From: Crambe crambe
Taxonomy: Eukaryota > Porifera > Demospongiae > Poecilosclerida > Crambeidae
DNA length: 64,000 nt
Direction: 5' to 3'
Assembly: GCA_963924555.1 (NCBI GenBank)
Contig: OZ004593.1
Coordinates: 5,266,480-5,330,479 of the forward strand
Each line of letters starts with the position of its first letter. Position 1 is the first letter of the stretch. This document shows positions 1 through 46,184 of the stretch, one piece after another. Under the pieces are notes generated by a model, which worked only from the letters and a program-made list of their open reading frames with translations, had not been told where the DNA came from and ran no database searches. The position numbers and the translations under genes were made by a program.

Positions 1-53
1 GGTAATGATGTCGTCATAATTTATATTCAGAGTTCACTTCTTTTCTTTTGTAG

Positions 54-1279
54 GAAACACATTCTATTACTCTGCAAGGTTGTACAGACGTTTATCCCAC
101 AACTCTGCAATCTTCTGCATGTGTTTATACAGTGAAGTGTACACAAAGGTATGCATGCTTCTCTCCTGAAGTCTAACTGATAATATTATGACATGTGCAG
201 CATTGTGACAAGGTGATGAAGGAGGTTGGTGGAAAAGACTGGGAAGTTAGTACCATCACATCTGAACTCACATCAGAAGAAGTCTGTCTTACTGTGACTG
301 ATGGAATAGGATGGAAGGTCATCTTCGACACAGAGCCTTCTGAAGTTAGTCAGTGAATTGTCATAGTAACATAGAGGGAGGGATTTTCATTGTTTTGGAT
401 CTCTACTCTGCAGTTCACTTTAGTGACTTTAAAGTGAGACCACCCCTGTCATTAAAGGAATAATGTTCTCATTGCTAGCATTTTTGTTTTTTGGTTAGTT
501 TTTGGTATTAGGCTAATTCTGAGAATGGATACTTGCTGAGGTTTATGGAAACTGGTCATTTTATCCCTCCCCAGATTTTGAAGAAAGAAATTCACATACC
601 AGAAGAGTTACACAGAGGCATCGAAGAGTGTCCTGATTATCCTCCAAGACGTTTGATTCAATTTCTTCCTATTCAACTGGATCCATCAACTGAACGCTCC
701 AACCCAATCAAGCTAAGAGTGGATGGACTATATAAGGAGTTTTACTTCAATATCGTAGCCCCAAGTAAGTTCTATTAATAGGTACATCAAACAAACAATA
801 ATGTGTAGCATTTCATAACCACATCAAATTAGAGATCATGCTTTAATGATCACTTTGTAACATTCTTTGCAGATCCTACACATGCCGAGTTCAGCAATCA
901 TCCCGAGAGTGGCATGGTGTCCACTAGCCCCTTAGCAACTGCTACTAACCTCTCGTCAATTTCTATCAAAAACTCTCCTGGACCTCATCAACCTTCTTCA
1001 TGGAGTCAAGATGAACCCACACTTGGTGAAACCTTTCGCATCTTGTTCCCCATAGCACGTGAGTGGGAGAACATTGGTACTTTGCTGGATCTATCACCTG
1101 ATCAACTCTCCAACATCAAGAATGACAATGACGGGGTACAAAACTGTTTGCGTGAAATGGTTAAACTCTGGCTGAAACAAGTCACTGTCCATCCTACTTG
1201 GCAGTCACTGGCAGATGCTGTGTCACTGATCGACCCGAGAGTCACTTTAAAAATCTCAGAAACCTACAAAAAATGGTAG
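54..1279 (+). CDS. 3' part of an ankyrin-ZU5-UPA-Death gene (copy B)
   Basis: Four exons are visible: 54-148, 201-344, 575-764 and 873-1279. They match exons 3-6 of the complete gene at 5116-8549 one for one, with the same phases and identical or nearly identical lengths. The first bases of the window are the end of the intron that precedes exon 3, so the ankyrin and ZU5 exons lie outside. Exons 54-764 encode the UPA-type segment. Exon 873-1279 encodes a Ser/Pro-rich linker and then a Death domain (from DEPTLGETFRILFPIAREW to ISETYKKW). Death domains make homotypic contacts in apoptosis and innate-immune signalling, and UPA packs against ZU5 in UNC5, PIDD and ankyrin. The reading frame is open throughout, so the gene looks intact. 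Function in this organism is inferred from domains only. Confidence 0.8.
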
Positions 1280-1747
1280 ACTCTCCTCCTTTATTATATA
1301 TGTGTTTGTGTTCTAGTGTGTAAGTACAGTCATGCATCCTCTTCCTTTAAATATACAGCAGGTACGTATGTAATTAATCTTTTCATAGAAATCTAATAAT
1401 CTTTGGCTCGAGTTCAATACCACTCCTCTCATTGGATGTAATGACCTAAGTATACTGTCTTGGAATTTTTTATAGAGAGGTGAATGTCTCAAATATCCTA
1501 TCATGGCTATCATGTTTACAATTGAACTAAGTCCTAATAAGGATGTGGGCAAGTGTACACATGCTATTTCTTCAGCAATTATTAACAATCAACCCATGCA
1601 TATGGTTCACTAGCTACTACAGTAGACCATCTGGCACACTTTCTTTGGGACCCAGCCCTTTTGTCATTTGCAGTTAGAATTTTGTCCTCTTTTGGAAGAG
1701 TGCATCCTAGGACTAGATCATCCTTTGATCTCCACGATTCCATTAAT
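1280..1747. other. 3' flank of copy B, homologous to the 3' flank of copy A
   Basis: No gene is seen. The stretch aligns by eye with 8550-8775, the flank after the complete copy, sharing blocks such as AATAATCTTTGGCTC and GTGGGCAAGTGTACACA. It is therefore duplicated flank that travelled with the Death-domain exon. Confidence 0.6.
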
Positions 1748-1870
1748 ATTGTTCTCTATCACCCCACAACTAACAGTTGGTCTCCTCTATCAGTCTAGCA
1801 TCATGACTCACCAAAATCACACCTACGACAGTTAGAACACCCAACATAAAAGTCGGCTCAAGGGAGGGAA
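1748..1870 (-). pseudogene. ABCF1: Duplicated fragment of the last ABCF1 exon and adjoining intron
   Basis: The segment matches 9327-9446, which is the start of the last coding exon of ABCF1 plus part of the preceding intron. Shared blocks include GGTCTCCTCTATCAGTCTAG and CATGACTCACCAAAATCACA, in the same orientation. The copy has a one-base length difference in a C run and lacks the other 17 exons, so it cannot be functional. Its place directly after copy B, as ABCF1 follows copy A, indicates that the duplicated unit once reached into ABCF1. Confidence 0.8.
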
Positions 1871-2876
1871 TTTTGGTGCCTAATCTGTTCACCTGGGGAA
1901 GAGGCTACTCAACGGTTGGTAGTAATCCACGTTAAGACCTCAACATCTCTCTATATTATAACCTTGGATCAATTGGTCATGTGTTAGATTCTGCCCAGTG
2001 AAACTGATCAGAGCGACCACATTAAAGGATTTTGATAATATTATCATGGCTATTAAAATACATTGTTTTAACCAAAAATGGGCCATATCAGAATGGTGTT
2101 GCACCGCTCTAACACCCTTTGGAGAGACACATGTACACATACACACCACGTACACACACACTTAAACTTGAACTAAGAGGATAATGCACAGAGTGGCAGA
2201 CAGAATATTAGTTGTCTTCTTACGATGATGGTGGCCTAGCTTGTCACCTGATCCCAGCCCCAAGGGTGAGTCATCTTACATATCTTGCCATGTCCTTTTG
2301 GTTCTCTTATAGGTACTAGACTGAAAAGGTTTGGTGGCTGTTCTGTCACTTCCTCCAGCACTCTCCTCAACATGGGGACTTCTCTTAATCTTGTCCTCGT
2401 CAACTCTCCTCCTGGTAACCTGAAATCAACATATCACCCATCAAGACATACACAAGAAGGGTCCCTCCAAGCTGACAACCCTCAAGGTGTGGAAATAGGT
2501 TTGTGTCGAGACCTGGAACAAGACTACAGAACCACAGACCTGCAACAAGACTGAGTTCAAAACAGAGGAAAGGTGATGCTATTACTCTTGAAAAAGTCTT
2601 GAAGAAACCACATACTGGAATGAACTGCCACAAAATAAGACAAAGTCACGAAGATTGCACAATACCAGGAACCAAAGACAGCAGTTAACAGGATACAAAA
2701 TTGAAGAATGGTGGAAAGTGCAAAAAGGAAGAAGATCTGTCTGATTCTCAATGAGAAAAAGAGATGGAGGCAGATAAATGGCTCATACAATTGCACTGGC
2801 AAATAAACCCAGGGAAAGCTTGATGAAGAAAATAACTGGAAGTGTGAAGCTAACTAAAGGAGACAAGTCAACTACA

Positions 2877-2886
2877 GCGCATGCGC
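2877..2886. promoter_or_regulatory. NRF1-like palindrome upstream of the truncated copy
   Basis: GCGCATGCGC lies 90 bp before the ATG at 2976 and matches the core of the NRF1 binding site. The same palindrome is kept at 5017-5026 before the complete copy. Confidence 0.45.
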
Positions 2887-2975
2887 ACTTTGTTAAATTA
2901 TAAAATGGGTGTGTCTATCACTTAACAACGTCATTTTGTTTTGAAGGGTCCGGGTATATCGATCATCAATAAACG

Positions 2976-3692
2976 ATGGAGGAAATTCAACTTCAAGGAG
3001 GACAGTCTAGAGAACGTACCAAACGTGGAACTTTGTCAGTGAAAAATCTTGCCATTAGATCGAATCGAATGCTGAAGAAAGGTTGGAGGAAAATGAGATC
3101 ATTTGGTGTGCGCATCGGATACATAGCTGAGCAAGATAAGAAATTCCCTGATGATCGCTCCAAAACACGTCACAACAAGCCGAGCTCGCTCAATGAAACC
3201 GAAGGAGTCGATCAAGACAGTAGCAGTGGATCCCTGGATCTATTATCAGCAAGTTCAGAAGGGAAACTTGACACCATAAAGCAGCTCTTGGAAACAGGTA
3301 CTGAAGTTGATATGCAAGATGGCGATGGAGTGTCTGCTCTGATGTTGGCATGCCAAAATGGACATAAGGAAGCAGCTAAACTGTTGCTGGAAAGAGGTGC
3401 TCAAGTGGATTTACGGGACAATTATGGATGGTCTTCTCTAATGTGGGCAAGTAATGAGGGACAAACTGAAGTAGTCAAACTGTTGCTTGAAAGAGGTGCT
3501 CAAGTGGATTTACAGGATAATGATGGATAGTCTTCTCTAATTAGGGCAAGTAATAATGGACAAACTGAAGTGGTCAAACTGTTGCTTGAAAGAGGTGCTC
3601 AAGTGGATTTACAGAATAATTATGGACAATCTTCTCTAATATTTGCAAGTGATAATGGACAAACTGAAGTGGTCAAACTGTTGATTGAAAGA
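2976..3692 (+). pseudogene. Truncated ankyrin-repeat copy (copy C)
   Basis: The first 552 bases are almost identical to the start of the complete gene at 5116. They encode the same basic N-terminal region and the first ankyrin repeats. An in-frame TAG at 3528-3530 ends the ORF at 184 aa, inside the ankyrin array. Ankyrin coding sequence resumes to about 3692 and then meets an inverted piece of a Death-domain exon, so the ZU5, UPA and Death exons are missing. The promoter-proximal sequence is intact, so a short ankyrin-only protein could still be made. I regard it as a broken duplicate of a host gene. Confidence 0.75.
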
Positions 3693-3896
3693 GGTCCAGG
3701 AGAGTTTTTGATAGAAATTGACGAGAGGTTAGTAGCAGTTGCTAAGGGGCTAGTGGACACCATGCCACTCTCGGGATGATTGCTGAACTCGGCATGTGTA
3801 GGATCTGCAAAGAATGTTACACAGTGATCATTAAAGCATGATCTCTAATTTGATGTGGTTATTATTGTTTGTTTGATGTACCTATTAATAGAACTT
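3693..3896 (-). pseudogene. Inverted fragment of a copy-B Death exon and its 5' intron
   Basis: Read on the - strand, this stretch matches about 770-985: the end of the intron before the Death exon, the TTTGCAG acceptor, and the coding start around HPESGMVS. It abuts ankyrin coding sequence at 3692, so the + strand ORF at 3570-3779 runs from ankyrin repeats into antisense Death-exon sequence. The junction marks a rearrangement between copies in opposite orientation. Confidence 0.8.
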
Positions 3897-5016
3897 AGGA
3901 ATAAGTAGCTATGTGTGGGCAAGTGTACACATGCTATTTCTTCAGCAATTATTAAATGCATATGGTTCATGGGAGGGAATTTTGGTGCCTAATCTGTTCA
4001 CCTGGGGAAGAGGCTACTCAACGGTTGGTAGTAATCCACGTTAAGACCTCAACATCTCTCTATAGTATAATCTTGGATCAATTGGTCATGTGTTAGATTC
4101 TGCCCAGTGAAACTGATCAGAGCGACCACATTAAAGGATTTTGATATTATCATGGCTATTAAAATACATTGTTTTAACCAAAAATGGGCCATATCAGAAT
4201 GGTGTTGCACCGCTCTAACACCCTTTGGAGAGACACATGTACACATACACACCACGTACACACACACTTAAACTTGAACTAAGAGGATAATGCACAGAGT
4301 GGCAGACAGAATATTAGTTGTCTTCTTACGATGATGGTGGCCTAGCTTGTCACCTGATCCCAGCCCCAAGGGTGAGTCATCTCACGTATCTTGCAATGTC
4401 CTTTTGGTTCTCTTATAGGTACTAGACTGAAAAGGTTTGGTGGCTGTTCTGTCACTTCCTCCAGCACTCTCCTCAACATGGGGACTTCTCTTAATCTTGT
4501 CCTCGTCAACTCTCCTCCTGGTAACCTGAAATCAACATATCACCCATCAAGACATACACAAGAAGGGTCCCCTCCAAGCTGACAACCCTCAAGGTGTGGA
4601 AATAGGTTTGTGTCAAGACCTGGAACAAGACTACAGAACCACAGAATGCTTTATCAACTCAAAGATAGACGACCTGCAACAAGACTGAGTTCAAAACAGA
4701 GGAAAGTTGATGCTATTACTCTTGAAAAAGTCTTGAAGAAACCACACACTGGAATGAACTGCCACAAAATAAGACAAAGTCACGTCCAGCAAGGAGAGAA
4801 CAAGTGAAGAAGATTGCACAATACCAGGAACCAAAGACAGCAGTTAACAAGATACAAAATTGAAGAATGGTGGAAAGTGCAAAAAGGAAGAAGATCTGTC
4901 TGATTCTCAATGAGAAAAAGAGATGGAGGCAGATAAATGGCTCATACAATTGCACTGGCAAATAAACCCAGGGAAAGCTTGATGAAGAAAATAACTGGAA
5001 GTACAAGTCAACTACA

Positions 5017-5026
5017 GCGCATGCGC
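5017..5026. promoter_or_regulatory. NRF1-like palindrome upstream of the complete gene
   Basis: GCGCATGCGC sits 90 bp before the ATG at 5116, followed by conserved promoter sequence that is the same in both duplicates. No convincing TATA box is seen next to it. Confidence 0.45.
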
Positions 5027-5115
5027 ACTTTGTTAAATTATAAAATGGGTGTGTCTATCACTTAATAACGTCATTTTGTTTTGAAGGGTCCGGGTATATC
5101 GATCATCAATAAACG

Positions 5116-7672
5116 ATGGAGGAAATTCAACTTCAAGGAGGACAGTCTAGAGAACGTACCAAACGTGGAACTTTGTCAGTGAAAAATCTTGCCATTAGAT
5201 CGAATCGAATGCTGAAGAAAGGTTGGAAGAAAATGAGATCATTTGGTGTGCGCATCGGATACATAGCTGAGCAAGATAAGAAATTCCCTGATGATCGCTC
5301 CAAAACACGTCACAACAAGCCGAGCTCGCTCAATGAAACCGAAGGAGTCGATCAAGACAGTAGCAGTGGATCCCTGGATCTATTATCAGCAAGTTCAGAA
5401 GGGAAACTTGACACCATAAAGCAGCTCTTGGAAACAGGTACTGAAGTTGATATGCAAGATGGCGATGGAGTGTCTGCTCTGATGTGGGCATGCCAAAATG
5501 GACATAAGGAAGCAGCTAAACTGTTGCTGGAAAGAGGTGCTCAAGTGGATTTACGGGACAATTATGGATGGTCTTCTCTAATTTGGGCAAGAAATAAGGG
5601 ACAAACTGAAGTGGTCAAACTGTTGCTTGAAAGAGGTGCTCGAGTGGATCTACAGGATAATGATGGACGGTCTTCTCTAATGTGGGCAAGTGATAAGGGA
5701 CAAACTGAAGTGGTCAAACTGTTGCTTGAAAGAGGTGCTCAAGTGGATCTACAGGATAATGACGGATGGTCTTCTCTAATGTGGGCAAGTGATAATGGAC
5801 AAACTGAAGTGGTCAAACTGTTGCTTGAAAGAGGTGCTCGAGTGGATTTACAGGATAATGATGGATTGTCTTCTCTAATGTGGGCAAGTGGTATGGGACA
5901 AACTGAAGTGGTCAAACTGTTGCTTGAAAGAGGTGCTCAAGTGGATCTACAGGATAATGATGGATGGTCTTCTCTAATGTATACAATACAAACTGAAGTA
6001 GTTGAACTGTTGCTTGAAAAAGGTGCTCAAATGGACTTACGGAATAATGATGGATGGACTGCCCTTGAACTTAATGATGAGCTCGGTTATTTTGATATCG
6101 TTGAACTCCTACAGAAGAAAAGTACACAAACTACAACTAACTTATGTGGAACTTCAAATCTTTATGGTGAGTTCTTCACTTTGTATTATGTGCTGCAATC
6201 TTATGGCTGCCCCTCCCATGTACATGTAGTCATGGAAACATGTAATCTTTAAGGTAGAAAGGATACTAATTTTCAGGGGTTTGCCAAAGTTAATTGAATA
6301 TAATTATGTCCTGATAATATGTTGCTAATTGCTATCTAGATATTCCAGATGTGCGTAATTTCTCAGAGTGTCCTGGGTTAGTGTTTGATCATGACACCAT
6401 CACACAAGGAGACGTCACATCTGAAGAAGTTACTCTCAATGGAATGGGAATACGTATGTCTATTCCTGAGGACTCGCTAAGTGATGGGGAAGAACCTGTT
6501 ACTCTATTAGTTCATCCTTGCTTCACTGGACCATTTGAGCTGCCAGACGATTTCGAGTCGGCCAGTCCTGCTTACCTGATCAAACCCAGCAGAAGAGTGA
6601 AGTTCAAGAGAGACGTGATTGTCAAGATCAACCACTATGCTCATCTGGAGAGTGAGGAGGACTGTGAGGACATGGTGTTCCTCTCAGCCAGCACCACTCC
6701 AGAATTCAGGGAGTCTGGTCCAGTGTATGTCTTCAAGGAAATAGAGGGGGCCAAGGGGGTGTTCCAATCTCGTTTTTTTGTTGGGGAGATCACCTTGAGG
6801 CATTTTTGTTTGATAAAGGCAGGTAAAAGAAAAAGGACATCACACTCTTCAGAATCAAAGAAGTCCAAAGGTAATGATGTTGTCATACTTTTACATTCAG
6901 AGTTCACTTCTTTTCTTTTGTAGGAAACACATTCTATTACTCTGCAAGGTTGTACAGAAGTTTATCCCACAACTCGGCAATCTTCTGCATGTGTTTATAC
7001 AGTGAAGTGTATACAAAGGTATGCATGCTTCTCTCCTGAAGTCTAACTGATGATATCATGACATGTGCAGCATTGTGACAAGGTGATGAAGGAGGTTGGT
7101 GGAAAAGACTGGAAAGTTAGTACGATCACTTCTAAGCTCACATCAGAAGAAGTCTGTCTTACTGTGACTGATGGAATAGGATGGAAGGTCATCTTCGACA
7201 CAGAGCCTACTAAAGTTAGTCAGTGGATTGTCATACTTGAAGGGAGGGGAGATTTATGCATTTCTATGTGACTTACAGTGAGACCACCCCTGTTATTAAA
7301 AACAAAATTATCATTGTACATATGTTTGTGTGTACGTGTGCGTGCACGCGCGCATGCATACGTGGAGTCACTCTGGGCTTGTAAGTGGGAGACCGTGAGA
7401 TCGAGTCCCACCAGTGACATATGGTGTTTATCCTGCCACCAGTCCACCCAGCTGAAAATGGGTACCTAGAATTTCCAGGATGCAAATCAAACTGGCTATC
7501 TCTCCAATATCAGCTGTGGTCCAGGTGGGACTTCGGGTGCTCACACCACTTGCTGAGAAGAGATAGTCAGTCTTCCTGCGAGCCTGGGCTCCAGGAGGTA
7601 GCCAGCACTGGCTCATAGTACCTGCATAGTGCACAGGCAGCAGCAGCAGCAGGAGGTAGATGATTTGCATTT

Positions 7673-7703
<31 letters not shown>

Positions 7704-8549
7704 GGGGGGGGGGGGAGAGGGGGGAGGGGGGAGGGGATGTCAGTGTATACATGGTGTACATATGTTCTGAGAATGGAGGTTTTGCCTAAAAGTCATTACA
7801 CCTGCTTCACCCCCACCCCAGATTTTGAAGGAAGAGATTCATCTTCCTGAAGAGTTGCACAGAGATATTAAAGGCTGTCCTGATTATCCTCCAAGACGTG
7901 CGATTCAATTTCTTCCAATTCAACTGGATCCTTCCACTGAGCGCTCCAATCCAATCAGGCTAAGAGTGGATGGACTAGACTTTGAGCGTTACTTCAATAT
8001 CACAGTCCCAAGTAAGTCACATGCAGTGGTCTTACTAGCAAGTATGGAAATAGGGGTAGTCTGACACATCAATCAATGCATGTGGCATTTCATAACCACA
8101 AGAATTAGAGAGACCATGAATTGTGCTTGTAGTGTTTTAATGATCACTGTGTGACATTCGTTGCAGATCCTACACTTGCCGAGTTCAGCAATCATCCCGA
8201 GAGTGGCATGGTGTCCACTAGCCCCTCAGCTAATCTCTCATCAATTTCTATCAAGGACCATCAGCCTTCTTCATGGAGTCAAGATGAACCCACACTTGGT
8301 GAAACTCTTCGCATCCTGTTCCCCATAGCACATGAGTGGGCAAACATTGGCAGTTTGCTGGACATGTCTCCAGATGAACTCTCCAATATCAAGCATGACA
8401 ATGATGGGGCACAGAACTGTTTGCGTGAAATGATTATACTCTGGCTGAAGCGTGTCACTATCCGTCCTACTTGGCAGTCACTGGCAGATGCTGTGTCACT
8501 GATTGACCCGAAAATTGCTTTAAAAATCTCAGAAACCTACAAAAGATGA
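5116..8549 (+). CDS. Ankyrin-ZU5-UPA-Death domain protein, complete (copy A)
   Basis: Six exons (5116-6166, 6340-6870, 6924-7018, 7071-7214, 7822-8011, 8167-8549) join in phase to 797 aa. Residues 1-85 are basic and Ser-rich. About eight ankyrin repeats follow (residues 88-345); repeats 3-6 are nearly identical (GQTEVVKLLLERGA core). ZU5 spans about 358-520 (GMGIRMSIPEDSL, then SPAYLIKPSRRVKFKRDV). The UPA-type segment is about 528-671 (ITVPN end). A Ser/Pro linker leads to a C-terminal Death domain at about 705-795. No signal peptide or membrane segment is seen, so it is likely cytoplasmic. The layout resembles ankyrins and PIDD/UNC5, where ZU5-UPA regulates Death-domain signalling. Its ligand and pathway are unknown. 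Intron 4 contains a SINE and a G-rich microsatellite. The architecture is clear; the biological role is inferred. Confidence 0.88.
7362..7630 (+). mobile_element. tRNA-derived SINE (in intron 4 of copy A)
   Basis: The head has a B-box-like GATCGAGTCCC after GGGCTTGTAAGTGGGAGACC, and a non-tRNA body follows. The head recurs reverse-complemented at 23905-23988, and the body recurs at 29480-29600. Three dispersed copies with partly different extents support a SINE family. No clear target-site duplication was found. Confidence 0.6.
7673..7736 (+). repeat. (GT)n followed by a poly-G run
   Basis: A short (TG)n is followed by about 29 consecutive G and then a GA-rich stretch. It lies in an intron of the Death-domain gene, about 85 bp before the acceptor at 7821. 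Confidence 0.9.
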
Positions 8550-9246: not shown

Positions 9247-12200
9247 TTAGTTGACAAGTTCTCCCAGTGCTTGAAGGACTTCTTGTTTGTAGTCGTCAAA
9301 GTCTCCATCGATCTCACTGATCCCTTTGTTCTCTATCACCCACAACTGACAGTTGGTCTCCTCTATCAGTCTAGCATCATGACTCACCAAAATCACACCT
9401 ACGTATGACAGTAACAACACCCAACATAAAAGATGGCTCAAGGGAGGGCACAAGTGGAGTGTGGTTCACACATTATTTCCCCAATCTGTTAAGACCTCAA
9501 CAACCATGGGTCTGGTGGTACGTGTAGCATATAAACATACATACATACATACATACATACATACATACATACATACATACATACATACATACATACATAC
9601 ATACATACATACATACATACCTCCAGTGAATTCATTGATAGCATCAGCCAGTGCATCTATTGATTCAATATCGAGGTTATTGGTGGGCTCATCCTGCAAT
9701 AATACCAAATAATGCACATCATGTCCAGTACATATGTGGGTACAGACTGGGCTGGGCCTTCTCTTTACTTTCCCACTTACAAGTATCAAAATATCAGGCT
9801 CCATAAGTGCCAGCTCAGCAAAAACCACCCTGGCCTTTTGACCTCCAGAGAGATCCCGGATCTTGATGACATGGGCGTGACCTGGTAACCCATAACGACC
9901 AAGAGTTTTGCGTGTTAGCTGGTAATCTGTATTGAACTTTCTCTGCAAAAAAAAAAAAAAAAAAAAAAAAAATCACAAAAGTATTTCTTTTGTTCTGATG
10001 GTGACCATAATTGTGGGAAATTTTCGTGGATGAAAACAAGGGAATTTATAACGCACAACATTTAACTATGAAAATTTTAACCCACAAAAATTAAAACACT
10101 GTGATGATAACTTACCCTAAGGTATTCAACAGGTGACTCTGAGAGTTCTAATTGGTCTGCTGCATGTTGATTGTACACACCAATTCTCTAAAGTGATACG
10201 AATCACAAGAAAATGATGCACATTCCATATCCTGTGCCCCCCCCCCCAATTAATAATAATAATAAGATTGACTCACCAGTCGATGGTTTCTTCTGACCTC
10301 TCCAACCAACTACATAAACACATTTAGATAATTCTAATTTGTAGGTCGTACATCACCAACATCTAGTCACTACTTTTAAGCTATAGATAAGTGAGGTGTC
10401 CTTCTATGACAGGACAGGGTCACTGAATTTGCTCTTATTGTGATAGTGTAAAACCAACAGGAGAATGGCTGGCCAGTTTTGCTTAGACATTAGTCCTGAC
10501 TGTCTGTCAGACTGTTAAAATAGCCCCTGATAGTATTAAATTTGACAAGCACTATAGCTCACAGGATCTATTCTTCCTATGAGTAAGTTGAGGAATGTCG
10601 ATTTCCCTATCCCATTCGGTCCCACGACAGCAACTACAAAGAGAAATAAACAAAAAACAAAAACAAAAAAAAAACAGTATGCATGCTAGTGATCATGAGG
10701 AAAAAAAATCACAGTTCAGTGTTGTTTATGTGACCACCTCCACCTACTCATACCACTTGGTGTGATCACTGGTGGTCTACTCACACCACCTGCAAAACCT
10801 CCTAACATAACACTCGTACCTCTAGACTCCATATCGATTCCAAAGTTGAGTGACTTAAAGAGTTGTGGTTGTCCAGGGTAACCAAAATCCACATCTGTAT
10901 GGTATTGTATGTTACTGAGCAACCATAGTAACCATGGAAGCTAGCCCACAAGCATACCGTAGAGACCCAATATGGGAGGGCTGAGGGGAGGGGGACTTGG
11001 GAAGGAGAATTTCACAATGTATTCACGAGGTTTTCTCAGCAGTTCAGTCGGTCCTTCATCATCTTCTACCACTGGACGCTTCTGTATGAGTCAATGACAG
11101 TCGATCACATGAACAGAGCATAACTGGGTAGGGGGAATGAGAATCCTACCTTGCCTCCTCCTCCACCTCCTTTCTTCTTGTCCTTAGTTTGTGCCTCTTT
11201 TGCAGCTGCTTCCTGCAGTCAGCCAAAGGCCATAACAGAGAAACTGCTGACTAATCAATTCTGGGATTGGAAGTGTGGATGAAAGACTCACTGCACTGGC
11301 TTTGGATTTTCCTTGGCTCTTCATCTGTTTGATGGCCTTCACTTGCTTGGTGTACGCCTTTTCCGTCTCTTTGAACTTCTGAAGGTACATCTTCTTGAAA
11401 TCATCTGAACAACATGTCAAAACAAACAAACAAACTAGTAAAGTTGTGTAAAGTTGACTATGTACAGGCGGAGCTTTCTCTTGAGCTTAATAGTGTGCAT
11501 AAGTTGAACTCACTATAATTTCCTCTGTAGTAGTGCAACTTCTGGTCATCTACATAAAGAAGAGAATGTCTTACAATTGAGCATGTCCAGAAACTCAGTC
11601 AGTGTGTCCAATAAGGACTCTGCTGTGTGTCTGTGTGCCCTGAGCTAGACTAAGTGGGCTGGCCTTGGTATATAATCTTTCTTTCTCGTTCAATTTTGAT
11701 CACACCCACCTAGATGAATAACGTCAGTGCACACATTGTTGAGGAAGTCTTGGTCGTGGGAGACAATTAAAAGTGTCTTCTTCCAAGAGCAGAGATAACT
11801 ACATGTTAACAAGAATACAATCAGTAGACACTTCTACAAACTGAACTACAATGGAAGAAACCCCTTAATCTACTCCTGAAATGAGGACATCCAGTGAGGA
11901 AACCCCTTTAATCAACTCCTAAATGATGAGGAAATCCCTTTAATCAACTCCTGAAATGAGGACACTTCCTGAACAGCTTCTTGGGGAGACATCTTTACTC
12001 ACTTGTCCAGCCAAATGACTGCATTAAGATCAAGGTGATTTGTGGGTTCATCCAACATCAGCAACGTTGGTTCCATGAAGAGGGCCCTATGATCACATGA
12101 GAATCACATGACAGTCATGTTTTACAGCTAGTGGGTCAGATACTACATACCTGGCTAAAGACACTCTCATCCTCCAACCTCCAGAGAACTTCCTGGTGGC

Positions 12201-15200
12201 CCTTCCTTGCATTTCAGGATTGAAGCCCAAACCCTAATAATAGCACTGTCTGGTAAAGGGTCATCAAAATACAAACATATTACAGTATTCAATTTACATA
12301 CCTGGGGTGGAAGGGCAACAACAATAACAACAACAACAACAACAACAACAACAACTTACTGCTAGTATTCGTCTTGCTTTGGCTTCAGCACTGTCAGCAC
12401 CTATAGCATCCAGTTCAATATATACCTACATTTCACACAAAGGGGAAAAAGGAGTGAGCCCCTGATTTAGTGTACAATTAATTAAGAGGATCCCTGATTC
12501 AATCATAATCCAATGAGCCCCTAAGGATGTAGGAAAGGAGTAAGCCCTTACTTAATTACAACCTTGAACCTTGAATATGAGGATAAGCCCTTACTTAATT
12601 ACAGCCAAAGGGTAATGAGTGAACCTTGAATGTGAGGAAGGGGAAGGAGTAAGCCCCTGTCATAATTACAACCCACTGAGTACTGCTGGGTGGGGTCATT
12701 GTACCTGTTTGAGTCTATCTGACTGAGAATCATTGCCAGCCTCTGACTCAGCCACCAGTTTCTTCTCCTCTTCCAAAAGTTCCAACCTCTTGGTATCGGC
12801 CTTCAGCACAGCATCAATGGCGGGTGTGTCATCAGCCACGACCTCCTGTTCACACAGAAGCACGTCTATCCGAGGTGGGATGGCCAGTTTTCTCTCTGCT
12901 ATGTGATTCAGTAAGGTAGTCTTTCCCATCCTAAATGGAGAAGCTTTAATTAATCAGTGAAAGTTGTGCTTTGATTTGGATGGGTCATAAGGAAGGCAGA
13001 GGGGATCCGATTGTCCAAATTAGGAAGGCAAGGTTGCCAAGGGTATCTGAATGTCCAAATTAGGAAAGCAAAGTTACCAAGGGTATCCAAATTAGGAAGG
13101 CAAGGTTGCCAAGGGTATCTGAATGTCCAAATCAGCCTAGAGCATCCAATTGTCCAAATTAAAGTTACCAAGGAGTAAGAGGCTTCAACTGTACATCCAT
13201 CATGACCAAAACAAAATTTCTCATTCTGAGTCAACCTCCATACTATTTTTCAGTTTTGCTTTGTACACTTTGATAGTGTCAATTTTGGATTCTTCTCTTT
13301 TTCCATGAGTCTGTTATTATAGTTTAAAACACTGTAGGAAGGTCAGGTTACCAAGGGTACATTGTTTATAAGGGAAAAAGCATTTCGTGAAATGAAAAAA
13401 GATGTAGGGATGACCACTGCTCAAAAAAGTAAGGAAACAAGAAGGATGAAAATGGGATCAATCTTTGTTCTGTATATCCAGCCAACAATCCCTACATATA
13501 CACACATTACTACACTATAATCTGAAGCTACCCGACGTATATGTAGGGATTGTTGGCTGGATATACAGAATAAAGATTGATCCCATTTCCATCCTTCTTG
13601 TTTCCTTACTTTTTTGAGCAGTGGTCATCCCTACATCTTTTTTCATTTCACAAAATGCTTTTTCCCTTACTTGTTCCTGGTCTTTTTTCCTCTCTTTTAT
13701 GGTTTTAGCTATGTATAGAGTTCATTCTTTATGTGTAGCTATGCAGGGACAGATGAAAGAATAGTTCTCCAATAGCATACCAGCCATCATTATCAACGAG
13801 TCAAGGTGTTGTGTACTTGGAGGTCGAAGATGGTCTACCGTGGTGAATCTAAATCCCCGAGTAGATACAGTAGTCTATCATCATCTAGAGTGGTCTCGCG
13901 TGGCCGGACCCTTTACCAACTGCAGCATGGATGTATTACATCATCCGCACGCAGAAGGAAGGGTCTGGTGTCAGCGTGTACTGGCTTTCATTGCATTCCC
14001 CAGGAATGTGAACTTCAATACTTTGTGTGTATTGCTTATGGGAGTGTGGTTTTTTTTATCTCATTAATAATATTCACGTACACCGATAACCGTAGACACA
14101 TGGGCAATTCCACGGGCTGGAATTGCTACAATGCCTGGTTCCACTTGTGCTGACTGAAACGCCAGTGCACTCTGCAAATTGTTGGTCAGCGTTTGCAGGC
14201 GGTCACTACAAGATCTGCAAACGTATCCAGTGTGCAACTTGGTGCAGTCCACTTCAGGAAACCTGGAGATCAGAGCAGTAAGGCATTCCAGTGCACTTGA
14301 CATGCCAGGACTTGACAAGGGTCTCCTTCTCTTCTTCTCATTGGCACTGGCCACAGACTTTCCACAGCAAAAACAATTCTCCATAGCTAAGCAGCCAGAT
14401 GCAATAACAATAGCGTGCAGTTTACTCTTATGGTTTTGTGGTGTGAACGTGGGTGTAAATTGCATTCCACTGCAACGCGAGAGCCAGTACAAGCTGACAC
14501 CAGACCCTTCCTTCTGCGTGCAGATGATGTAATACATCCGTGCTGCAGTTGGTAAAGGGTCTGGCCACGCGAGACTACATCTAGAGCTAGCTAGCTAGAG
14601 ACAGCTGAGTAATATTATAATTTCGAATAATTGGATATGCGCATGCGTATTATAGAAAAGATGGCTTCCTAATTGAATTAGTCGAGTGCTGTGCTCCGTA
14701 GTGTCTCCTTTTTCATCGACTCTTTCGAGGATCAACGAGTAGAAAAGATCGTAGTTCGTAGAATTTGGAGTTGATTTATCCAGAAATCATAGCTGTAGCT
14801 TGAGTGGTTCGAGAGATATGGTTGTCTAAGAAGAATAATAATAATAATAGAGAAGAAGAATCCAGCGATTTACCTGCTTGCCGTATTTCTGAAACGGTAA
14901 GCTCCCTGGTCCTGAAACTTGGTCTGCGCATTGTAGTAGGCTCTAGTAGGCTGGATAATCATTCACAGTAGCTTTTGTTAGGTCTAAGTGGGGGAACTAG
15001 AATTTCACTTTAGTATTAGTCTATAGGTGGCGCGCGCGGCCGTCCGAGTCATCCCTACATAGAGAGTGCTACCGCACTCTCTGATAAAGAGAAATCTTAT
15101 AGTACATAATGCAAAGATGGTTTTAGATATCGAGAAATTGTTTAGAATGCCAAGATGCACACTACCTTGCCCAGAGAGAAAGGTTCACACACCCATTGGG

Positions 15201-22101: not shown

Positions 22102-41678
<19,577 letters not shown>

Positions 41679-42602: not shown

Positions 42603-44268
42603 TGTCCAAGTGTCTATCTCAGAAAAAAAAAATTCCTTCAATAGCCTATTACTATAACAGTACTTGATGGTGCCAAATTTAGAGAACATCTTGTGATCAG
42701 AAAATTCCTCAAATTCAGCAAGTGATTTTCACTGGAAGTGCCTGCTTGTAATCCAATTAACGTGGCTATTATGTAAATCATATTTTTTTTTTTGAGAATT
42801 ACATTTTTGATTTCAGATAATAGATCTAATTATTAGCATGATATTAGCCAATGTGATTATACTCCTGGTCCATGGTGAGGGTTCTGGATGGAACCTCAAA
42901 AATTTGAAACCATTGAATGACTTAAATCTGGGGTCTCACCGGGGTGACCTTAATGATATTCATGTGTCCGTTTAATCAGCTCAGGGGAGTATAAACCATC
43001 ATCTTATTATCATTGTCAAGGACACTTAATACTTCCCCAAAGCAGTGTATTTCTGCCTACACACATGCGGTAAGTGGGCACCAATAAAGTTCTCACTTTC
43101 CCAAATGCAAACTGTTAATACTATTATTACTTAAAAGTTTGTCCTATGACCTTAATTTACTAGATTTCCAGCATATCCTGCTCAGAGATCTAGTAACAGC
43201 TTCTAGCTTCTTCTAAATTAAACCTTCCCCTTGTAAAATCTTACAAGGAGTACAGAAATATTCAGGTACTAATCCCTCCCTTTTTGTAAAAATGTAGACA
43301 TTGCCAACAACCAGTCTGGAACAGAGATGTGGTCTCCAAGTAAATGCTCCAGTGCATATAGACTCTCTTTCAAATGGGACTCTGGAGACGAAGATAGACA
43401 ATTCCCTATGACCAAAGCACTCTTACGTGTCTACAAAGAAGTCTTGAGAAGGCATATTCCCACGGAACAGAATGTTACTGTTAATATCAGTATGATCCTC
43501 AACTTTGAAACTGATCGAAATTCTACTTCGTCATATGATGAAGAGTCATGGGTTCCAATAAAGACCATACAAGTGACACGGAACTCAAATGACTGGTTGG
43601 AACTTGATGTGACTGATCAGTTAGAAGCTGTGTGGGACCCGATGTTAAAACTTGGAATCATTACTATTGCTATGAAGTTCGATGTCGATTGCAAACAGCA
43701 AACAAAAATCCCTCTAAAGATTGTCAATCCAGCTGTGGAGGTGAGGAATGCAAGAAAAGAGAGACTTCTGCGTCATCAGCCATTCTTAGTTGTATTCATC
43801 AATGATGAAAATGTTAGAAAGGCAATTGAAGAGAATCAAAGATTCTTTTCTGATGATCAAATACTGAGTGTATCATCAAAGAATAAGAGAGATGTCACTA
43901 AAACCAATGGCTGCCAATTAAAGGACTTCCGCATCAATTTCGGTGATCTGAAACTCAACTACATCCTTTCTCCCCTGGTAGCCAACATCAAGACATGCAC
44001 AGGTCGCTGTGGGATTCAATACGTTCGACTCTACCCTTCCCTGGGTACAAACTACGCTAGACTCATGGCAGGGGCTCATGTTCACTATCTTAGTATCCCA
44101 GAAGGAGAGAAGAACACCTCTTTGTATGCAGACAACCCCAAGCCCAAGGAACCCTGTTGCTCTCCCATAGCATATAATCCTCTTATGCTCCTTACGGTAA
44201 CGAGGTACCCCGTGGTAGAACAGCGAATCTTTCCAGATTTTGTAGCATCGAGATGTGGCTGTAGGTAA
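42075..44268 (+). CDS. TGF-beta family ligand 1
   Basis: Two exons (42075-42267, 43298-44268) join in phase 1 to 387 aa. The N-terminus has a hydrophobic signal segment (MLRVLLTLSLCICASEG), so the product is secreted. The prodomain follows to about residue 275. KNKRD is the likely furin-type cleavage site. The mature region has seven cysteines in family spacing: NGC, KTC, GRC, the CC pair, and a terminal RCGCR. The CC pair includes the Cys used for the interchain disulfide. The two aromatic (Trp) positions usual before Cys2 are absent. I cannot place it with BMP, TGF-beta sensu stricto or activin. It starts 397 bp from the exchanger, and its close relative follows downstream. Confidence 0.9.
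42268..43297. other. Intron of TGF-beta gene 1
   Basis: AT-rich 1.03-kb intron with an (AAT)n run at 42561-42600. No other feature is recognised. Confidence 0.6.
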
Positions 44269-44641: not shown

Positions 44642-46184
44642 ATGAAATCATTACATCAAAGTAAAACCATGACCAAATACCTGGCGTTTCTATTAATCCT
44701 ATTCACATTTGCTCGAAGTTTTGAGCAAGATCACTTACTTGAAAGTCTGGGGAGAGAGAGAAGAAAAGCAACCAAGACGCAGAATCTATCCTCTAGTGCT
44801 GTGGACTATATGGTAAACCTCAGAAATCAACTCTCAGATAAGAATGGAAGACCGAAGTTGTCGAATTCTGATTTTCCCACCGAGATATGGGCGACACAAG
44901 ATCGAGGTACGGTGTGTAATAATAGTGGCTAGCAGCTAGGTGGGCATGGCTAGTCAAGTGTGCAGTCAACCATGACTGGTCTGCAGTCAACCATGAAGGA
45001 GCTGGAGAATATTAGCTACTGTATATAGCTAAGTGATAGATGCCCAGTGTGAAAGTAGCCAGGACTTTAAGGGCCAGGGCTCAGATGTGAAACTAGCCAG
45101 GGCTCAGGTGTGAAAATAGGTGAAAATAGCCAGGTCACCAAGGTGTGAATTAACCACTTGTTCCATCCCACTGTCTGGGGCACAAACTGTAAAACCAAGT
45201 GGATTTTATTGTATTCCTCTGGCTTTCACAGATTTATTGAGTGGTGTGTATAGAGCCAAGCAAAGAACTGGAAGTCGATGCACGGCAAAGAATCGTTTCA
45301 TCTTTGATTGGAGGTCCATTGCAGAATCTGAGCAGAGCAAGGCGCTGCCCGTGGAGAAAGCCATTCTGAGAGTCCACTTAAAAGTGATCCCAAGACTTCT
45401 CAATCAAAACCGTCCGACCTCTGTCAATCTCTCAGTGCATATGAATATACTTGGTAGGGATGAGAGCTTGAGGGTTCCAACAGGAGAGCATCAACTCTCT
45501 GTGACATCCCAATCTGCTGAATGGATGGAACTCAATATCACTCAGGGTGTTCGCAGTCTATGGCCACCAAAATTAAATGAATCTGTGATAGAGGTCACTA
45601 TTCTTTTCACAGTCAACTGTCAAACGTCCAAAAAGGTTCCTGCCATTTTCGAAGATCCTACGATTGTTCCTATCCACCAAAAGAAACGAAGGCAACGATT
45701 GTCAGCCCTTCAGCCTCTCTTCCTGGTATACCTCTCTGATGAACACATTAAGGAGATTGTGAGAAATGAAACTCAACCCAACTCTGTGGAGGAGGAAGAC
45801 AAGAGTGACATTGCCGGTCTCCAGAGGAACAAACGATCAACCAACCACCAATGCAGCATGGAGAATTTCTATGTCAATTTCAATGACTTGCAGCTGCATT
45901 ATGTGTTGGCTCCAAGTGCTTATAATGCCAAGCAATGCAGAGGCTCCTGCTCACATTCGACAGTGTCCATCAACAGTCACTTAGCAAACAACCACGCGAA
46001 GATCATGGCGAGTGCAAAGAAACTCTCCGAGATCAGAAGTGATATTCAATTCTTGAACGCACCCAAGGGACCCTGTTGCGTGCCTACAAAATACAGCTCT
46101 CTCACACTAGTGATCCCAAAGGGACAGAGCATAGAGTATGTGGTGTACCCGCATATGATAGTGGAAGAATGTAGGTGCAGATAA
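44642..46184 (+). CDS. TGF-beta family ligand 2
   Basis: Two exons (44642-44906, 45232-46184) join in phase 1 to 405 aa. A signal segment follows a second possible Met (MTKYLAFLLILFTFA). The prodomain runs to RNKRS, an R-x-K-R cleavage site near residue 291. The mature domain has the seven cysteines NHQC, AKQC, GSC, the CC pair and ECRCR, with a VLAPSAYNAKQC stretch near the family pattern. Exon structure, phase and sequence match gene 1 directly upstream, so they are tandem paralogues. Their mature domains have diverged considerably, so the duplication is not recent. Partners would be serine/threonine kinase receptors; subfamily is not decided. Confidence 0.9.

Follow-up and report, generated by a model that had tools for sequence, protein, structure and literature searches.

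A tandem array of ankyrin-ZU5-Death genes in the sponge Crambe crambe and its possible reading as a set of self-cleaving intracellular sensors

The DNA analysed here, a window of 64,000 nucleotides from the sponge Crambe crambe (chromosome 13; C16:5266480-5330479), opens with the 3' end of a 30-kb plus-strand tandem array of at least six gene units (U1 to U6) that combine ankyrin repeats (ANK), a ZU5 domain, an exon at the position of a UPA domain and a Death domain. This array has evolved by duplication, loss and exchange among its units. With a probability that we put at about 0.5, judging from sequence, the encoded proteins are ankyrin-based, probably self-cleaving, intracellular sensors that signal through their Death domain. 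In such a sensor the ankyrin array would bind a target and the ZU5 domain would cut its own chain between a Phe and a Cys or Ser, after which the ANK-ZU5 half would stay clamped on the Death half. When the sensor half is disturbed, the Death half would be freed to form a signalling platform, of the cell death or NF-kB type. We infer that the array proteins may function in immunity or defence.

Self-cleavage at HF[C/S] is probable because the window family has the motif, its place and the Death tail. A Phe followed by a Ser/Thr/Cys-type nucleophile is present near the end of ZU5, as HFC, in U3, U4 and U6, and the ZU5 exon of U6 reads TLRHFCLIKAG near its end. The cut in PIDD follows each of its ZU5 domains, at HF/S, and that in NLRP1 and CARD8 falls at SF/S, such self-cleavage being started by Ser, Thr or Cys; replacement of Phe by His abolishes cutting in PIDD and Nup98 and leaves CARD8 severely defective, and UNC5b has a Leu at the site of CARD8's essential Phe (PMC3210808).

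The motif was surveyed in 87 aligned rows, which represent 81 sources and include the query a second time. Phe with Cys or Ser occurs as HFC (60 rows), HFS (4), QFS (2), QFC (1) and YFC (1), while the other rows show SLQ (9), SLR (1), SLD (1), SFN (2), HFY (1), TPC (2), a gap (2) or TFL (1), the last at a locus (L038) whose exon carries an in-frame TAA. In a tree of 82 rows built without the motif columns, from which rows shorter than 115 residues and all but one R row besides the window's own were omitted, Phe plus Cys/Ser is present in 64 of the 81 decidable rows, absent in 17 and undecidable in one. Its distribution on this tree needs four changes compared with 15.6 in shuffles, and 13 of the 17 losses fall in one clade (support 100/99). 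In the SLQ/SLR rows Leu replaces Phe, and a COR-A domain lies 2.8-3.5 kb downstream in eight of these ten rows versus none of the 64 HF[CS]-type rows, as judged from the best 150 of 339 COR-A candidates. The SLQ/SLR clade and U1, which lacks the ZU5 exon, are natural controls for the cleavage idea.

The codons behind the motif, counted in 67 rows, vary synonymously (His, CAT 42 and CAC 21; Phe, TTT 45 and TTC 22; Cys, TGC 31 and TGT 30; Ser, AGT 5 and AGC 1). His is the sole unconditioned codon test, because these rows were chosen for Phe plus Cys/Ser, and it is kept in 63 of them. Ser, encoded by AGT or AGC, takes the place of Cys in 6 of the 67. This swap, together with free synonymous change, is more readily explained if the residue is a nucleophile than if it is a cysteine that binds zinc or forms a disulfide. 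The top Pfam ZU5 match of the genome (L001, 45.5 bits), which lies outside the 150 places retrieved with the U6 exon, has MHFCSF, with its Phe 42 residues past the Pfam match as against 49 in U6.

Variation in the ankyrin repeats is concentrated at positions 2, 3, 5, 13, 14 and 33, which we take to be those randomised in designed ankyrin binders (DARPin). Among 27 array repeats the mean entropy is 1.56 at these six positions versus 0.39 elsewhere (p 0.0002), synonymous entropy is flat across the repeat (p 0.55), and 29 repeats retrieved with the same sequence pattern from 14 other loci give 2.55 versus 0.86. In 20 close array repeats the nonsynonymous difference per site (pN) at the six binder positions is 2.0 times the overall synonymous one (pS; bootstrap 1.59-2.74) and 0.40 at other positions; 91 of 20,000 random six-position sets reach the value of the binder positions.

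The three copies that the initial annotation placed within 8.5 kb of the window are indeed three units, U4, U5 and U6, but the one described as a 3' end is a complete gene cut by the window edge. U4 has its ATG 1952 bases to the left of window position 1, its first exon is wholly left of the edge, only the last base of its ZU5 exon is inside the window (base 1), and its spliced product of 871 residues has no internal stop and canonical splice sites. U6, correctly called complete, has six exons with GT/AG sites and encodes 797 residues without internal stops, and U3 (936 residues) likewise has GT/AG sites and an uninterrupted frame. When the window exons were queried against the window and 30 kb fetched upstream, the array start was found about 22 kb further left, with U3, U4 and U6 intact and U2 and U5 broken. 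In U1, joining exon 1 to exon 3 retains an open frame without the ZU5 exon, because the missing exon measures 531 nt and is flanked by phase-1 introns. The ankyrin exon has a length of 1051 nt in U6, 1249 in U4 and 1447 in U3, that is, in steps of 198 nt or two 33-residue repeats, and the units carry about 7-11 repeats. The odCraCram1.1 assembly is described as built from HiFi reads at 459x plus Hi-C, with a consensus quality (QV) of 58.1 (PMC12166358). Because of this HiFi depth and quality, and because indels and a unique inversion distinguish the copies, an assembly artefact is an unlikely source of the tandem copies.

As for the architecture first assigned to these genes, its ANK, ZU5 and Death parts reach Pfam cut-offs exon by exon, whereas its UPA label finds no support from Pfam PF17217 or the Protein Data Bank (PDB). 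Exon 1 of U6 contains tandem 33-residue ankyrin repeats (Ank_2, E 2.4e-80), its ZU5 exon scores 24.1-24.5 bits against the PF00791 cut-off of 21, and the Death exons of U4 and U6, taken as single exons, score 24.7 and 22.8 bits against the PF00531 cut-off of 22.6. In the spliced protein ZU5 is just over its cut-off (21.1 versus 21) and Death below it (19.2 versus 22.6). In a ZU5-exon alignment of 62 members (61 of 80 locus references and the window exon), 57 match PF00791 at E<=1, some of them below the cut-off.

Upstream sequence, promoter and first exon had also been described as nearly identical in two of the copies, non-coding bases included, and this holds. Positions 1855-3262 of U5 and 3964-5402 of U6 agree at 1373 of 1386 aligned bases (99.06%, plus 75 gap columns), their non-coding part agrees at 1087 of 1099 (98.9%), and the blastn match extends to 3695/5835, at 94% over 1894 columns including gaps. 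Searched against the genome, the promoter stretch 2200-2975 is matched over its full length four times, every time within this array. Pairwise synonymous divergence (dS) is 0-0.016 in the head and 0.009-0.026 in ZU5, then 0.03-0.19 in exon 4, 0.025-0.42 in the UPA-position exon and 0-0.39 in Death, the pair U6-U4 reaching 0.42 and 0.27 in the last two. The genes are mosaics, with nearly identical 5' halves (promoter, head, ZU5; dS 0-0.03) and older 3' halves (0.2-0.42), apart from whole Death-to-next-promoter blocks that have been copied. The Death exon of U2 and U4 has no difference in 134 codons and, with its 3' flank, matches at 973 of 979 bases (13 gap columns), and U4 and U6 share upstream sequence and head at 1428 of 1438 bases; therefore, blocks running from a Death exon to the next promoter have been copied and gene halves exchanged. 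Recent shuffling, as annotated, is borne out by promoter and head blocks confined to the array, by this mosaic divergence and by one unique rearranged copy, and the array is a DNA record of how such genes recombine. The ratio of nonsynonymous to synonymous divergence (dN/dS) is 0.28-0.38 for Death in all nine pairs that differ, and the Death exons are therefore under constraint; of the ten pairs compared for the UPA-position exon, eight lie at 0.13-0.40 and the remaining two at 0.69 and 0.93.

The rearranged copy is U5, which had been taken as truncated and is indeed broken, though not simply cut: its ankyrin part, interrupted by a stop, is followed by an inverted copy of window positions 766-986 and then by a direct copy of a gene's 3' flank. 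The inverted piece agrees with U4 at 206 of 207 aligned bases (14 gap columns), and only about 114 of its bases belong to an exon. The left joint has a 5-base overlap, GAGGT, read by eye; the chimeric stretch 3600-3960 has a full-length genome match only to itself, and the DNA fold of the joint showed nothing notable. This structure would follow from one deletion-inversion in a unit that was once complete.

Lineage expansion, the remaining claim made for these genes, stands as a count within this species. The U6 ZU5 exon finds at least 150 places in the genome, every one of the best 150 out of 287 candidates being significant; at least one exon, at C11:3.945 Mb, is counted there twice, and some places contain stops. 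Pfam ZU5 gives 64 matches, part of them to other ZU5 proteins, and the two sets together make at least 186 clustered places on 16 contigs. The same genome has at least 103 NACHT (of 232 candidates), at least 150 COR-A (best 150 of 339) and at least 150 Death matches (best 150 of 965). Among 20 relatives retrieved with flanks, ZU5, exons 3 and 4 and the UPA-position exon are present in all, an upstream ankyrin part in 14 and a U6-like Death exon in 13. In five of the seven without such an exon, tail open reading frames were searched: only L031 gave a Death match, just under cut-off, and L022 gave none.

The fronts of these relatives differ. At L036 (C21:1584736) an open frame encodes Ig, NACHT and LRR domains and is followed by a short ankyrin-like remnant and a phase-1 donor, both read by eye, and then by ZU5 with HFC; the last exon at this locus resembles Death by eye only, Pfam giving no match there. 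NACHT lies within 3 kb upstream of ZU5 at 3 of the 186 places, all on C21, among the NACHT matches listed. A weak match of caspase-like type (Raptor_N, E 0.01-0.03, under cut-off) is present at three loci on C15 (L031-L033), with ROC-COR also upstream of ZU5 in L031, and in a group on C3, C5 and C12 COR-A lies 2.8-3.5 kb downstream of ZU5. A helicase-like frame upstream of ZU5 at L030 was set aside as probably a neighbouring gene. At somewhat less than even odds, Crambe crambe may possess a sensor kit sharing one exchangeable self-cleaving tail, in which a phase-1-flanked ZU5 would cut between HF and Cys (or Ser) ahead of Death, behind ankyrin, NACHT-LRR or ROC-COR/caspase-like fronts, forming an NLRP1-like release switch with mostly a cysteine nucleophile and including a naturally uncleavable clade with ZU5 before ROC-COR.

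Several side observations concern the same gene families. At C3:7.48-7.83 Mb, 24 ZU5 places lie within 340 kb; for 20 of them the COR-A matches listed include one some 3 kb downstream, and those read have SLQ/SLR. The L036 frame (L036:3557-8500, C21:1.58 Mb) is 1648 residues long and, with Ig, NACHT, LRR and then the ZU5 tail, represents an NLR with immunoglobulin domains. At C9:7.06-7.53 Mb a one-strand array holds 25 listed NACHT matches, mostly in frames of about 1050 residues.

Several points weigh against the proteins being self-cleaving sensors. CARD8 needs a catalytic His 27 residues before the nucleophile (H270 to S297; PMC3210808), as does NLRP1 (H942 to S969 in the rat protein). U6 has no His 27 residues before Cys 507, the only ones there being at 449 and 452, more than 50 residues before the Cys, and at 505, the motif's own; another His could serve in U6 cleavage. 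The Death domains barely reach the Pfam cut-off. UPA (PF17217) has no match in the spliced protein or in a ZU5-to-UPA alignment of 14 members, taken from the 20 printed stop-free spliced sequences (21 were assembled, from U6 and 20 loci), and none genome-wide, where the controls gave none either. FIIND (PF13553) has no match in the 14-member alignment at E<=10 and none genome-wide, again with controls that gave none; in the 62-member ZU5 alignment two members match it weakly (best E 0.049). A PDB profile search gave no match with the 14-member alignment and one unrelated match (E 0.72) with the 62-member profile, and phmmer searches for solved ZU5/UPA relatives gave none, the best matches being THO complex Death domains at E 0.045 and up. 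Comparisons of ZU5 among the units give dN/dS values of 0.28, 0.57 and 1.43, each from six changes, and are uninformative. The motif rows cover 84 of the 150 ZU5-exon places and are weighted to the best-scoring ones rather than random, four of the 17 rows missing the motif lie outside the lost clade, and the association of ROC-COR with motif loss amounts to one or few events because the lost rows are one clade. For the ankyrin repeats, pN/pS at the six binder positions alone is 1.02, and the repeats compared are not mutually independent. Ankyrin repeats vary at these surface positions in general, and for that reason the pattern supports a change of the binding surface in the array but does not prove positive selection. 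All family-wide statements come from one genome, that of Crambe crambe.

These points leave room for a different, though less likely, explanation, in which the proteins are non-cleaving scaffolds that, as adaptors of the ankyrin or UNC5 kind, bring Death-domain partners to a target, and HF[C/S] has only a structural part in the ZU5 fold. ANK, ZU5 and Death follow the ankyrin-type order, the U1 frame stays open without its ZU5 exon, the motif-less clade has many members (L005-L008 included), and U6 lacks an equivalent of the NLRP1 catalytic His, all of which would suit an adaptor. On the other hand, Cys and Ser interchange at a place where other residues are rare, and the SLQ/SLR rows, of which eight in ten have ROC-COR downstream, have lost Phe and nucleophile jointly, as would be less expected of a structural element. 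It is distinctly improbable that the array is debris of neutral birth and death, in which copies of a repeat-rich family would come and go with no particular function and differ through recombination alone: while two of six units are broken and a Death-exon fragment lies loose, three full-length units are intact in addition to the open U1, the Death exons and most pairs of the UPA-position exon have the low dN/dS given above, and the motif His persists despite free synonymous change. Still more remote is the idea that U5 works as it stands, as a short ankyrin-only decoy that also yields antisense to its neighbours' Death exon from a promoter of the shared type. Its promoter block is almost that of the intact U6 and its inverted piece almost that of U4, but the unit, which is unique in the genome, looks like the outcome of one accidental deletion and inversion, with little exon sequence in the inverted part. 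We retain the self-cleaving sensor as the preferred reading.

The features of the array are collected in the table. Elsewhere in the window, two adjacent TGF-beta ligand genes lie at 43273-44265 and 45120-46181 (mature domain E 6e-14 and 2e-21, with a propeptide match in the first). A sodium/hydrogen exchanger exon occupies 38976-39428 on the minus strand, and 13 kb downstream of it, at 25053-25493 on the same strand, there is a weak cyclic-nucleotide-binding match, under cut-off; the two perhaps belong to one gene, presumably an exchanger of the sperm type. Just downstream of the array an ABC ATPase exon (9469-9972, minus strand; a weak match of 22.3 bits versus 25, ABC-F-like by eye) is adjoined by runs of CATA and of a 17-bp repeat, and an inverted repeat at 13369-13669 has 133-nt arms that are 98% complementary and 35 nt apart.

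Table. Features of the ankyrin-ZU5-Death array; positions are those of the window unless prefixed by C16.
Feature	Position	Strand	Basis or remark
Further partial promoter match	C16:5234137		promoter query 2200-2975
U1 head	C16:5244697	+	open frame, without the symmetric ZU5 exon
U2 degenerate head	C16:5248948	+	broken head, TAG in ZU5
U3	C16:5254686	+	intact, 936 residues, HFC
Loose Death-exon fragment	C16:5262434	+	exon query
U4 (window copy 1)	C16:5264513	+	intact, 871 residues, HFC
U5 (window copy 2)	C16:5269440	+	broken
U6 (window copy 3)	C16:5271580	+	intact, 797 residues, HFC
U4 3' part	1..1279	+	exons 54-148, 201-344, 575-764, 873-1279 (Death exon and stop)
U4 intron and Death-exon start	766..986	+	inverted near-copy in U5
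U5 upstream/promoter block	1855..2975	+	98.9% identical to that of U6
U5 head and ankyrin exon	2976..3690	+	reading frame stops at TAG 3528-3530 (184 residues); ankyrin similarity to about 3690
U5 inverted fragment	3691..3897	-	intron and Death-exon start
U5 closing remnant of gene 3' flank	3914..3969	+	direct copy of 1544-1609
U6 upstream/promoter block	3964..5115	+	blastn, alignment, genome promoter query
U6 exon 1	5116..6166	+	conserved head (about 90 residues) and about 7 ankyrin repeats of 33 residues; donor GTGAGT
U6 exon 2	6340..6870	+	ZU5; 531 nt, phase 1 on both sides; TLRHFCLIKAG near end
U6 exon 3	6924..7018	+	splice model
U6 exon 4	7071..7214	+	splice model
U6 exon 5	7822..8011	+	UPA-domain position; no sequence match to UPA
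U6 exon 6	8167..8549	+	Death domain and stop

Among the titles and abstracts listed by literature searches, none dealt with HF[C/S] or, for sponges, with arrays of ANK-ZU5-Death genes; the array, its mosaic history, the motif survey and the motif loss were absent from these listings and to that extent appear new, the ZU5 expansion itself being already known. Zhang et al. 2012 described a lineage-specific expansion of ZU5 in sponges and suggested defence, in one sentence that states no architecture, and gave the active-site motif of the ZU5 superfamily as CxH (PMC3482391). The window family is very probably of the same kind, although its residues stand in the order H-F-C. It has also been reported that NACHT-Zu5 architectures occur in early animals, C. 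crambe being named in an NLR comparison (PMC12909245), and that ZU5 is listed with NACHT in cnidarians (PMC8260672). In the window genes Pfam finds neither NACHT nor LRR, the marks of a bona fide NLR.

Among known systems, canonical ankyrins (ANK1-3) resemble the array proteins in having ANK, ZU5 and Death in identical order. They possess two ZU5 domains, in the order ANK-ZU5-UPA-Death, whereas the array units have a single ZU5 and about 7-11 repeats compared with the 24 that published abstracts give for ankyrins. In UNC5 proteins ZU5 is preceded by extracellular Ig/TSP domains and a transmembrane segment; in the array protein Pfam finds ANK there. PIDD shares ZU5 followed by Death, with HF and a nucleophile near the end of ZU5 (PMC3210808), but it has LRR and two ZU5 domains instead of ankyrin repeats and one, and in most members described here the nucleophile is Cys rather than Ser and the site is a predicted one. 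NLRP1 and CARD8, which carry FIIND, differ in a CARD instead of a Death tail, in a NACHT-LRR instead of an ankyrin front, in the FIIND/UPA match that Pfam does not find here, and in the catalytic distance at which U6 has no His; they are alike in joining a sensor part, a ZU5 with a predicted cut site and a death-fold domain, and the relative at L036 even has NACHT-LRR before ZU5. If the proposed reading is true, the release-by-self-cleavage logic of mammalian NLRP1, CARD8 and PIDD would operate on a broad scale in a sponge, the recognition being done by ankyrin arrays.

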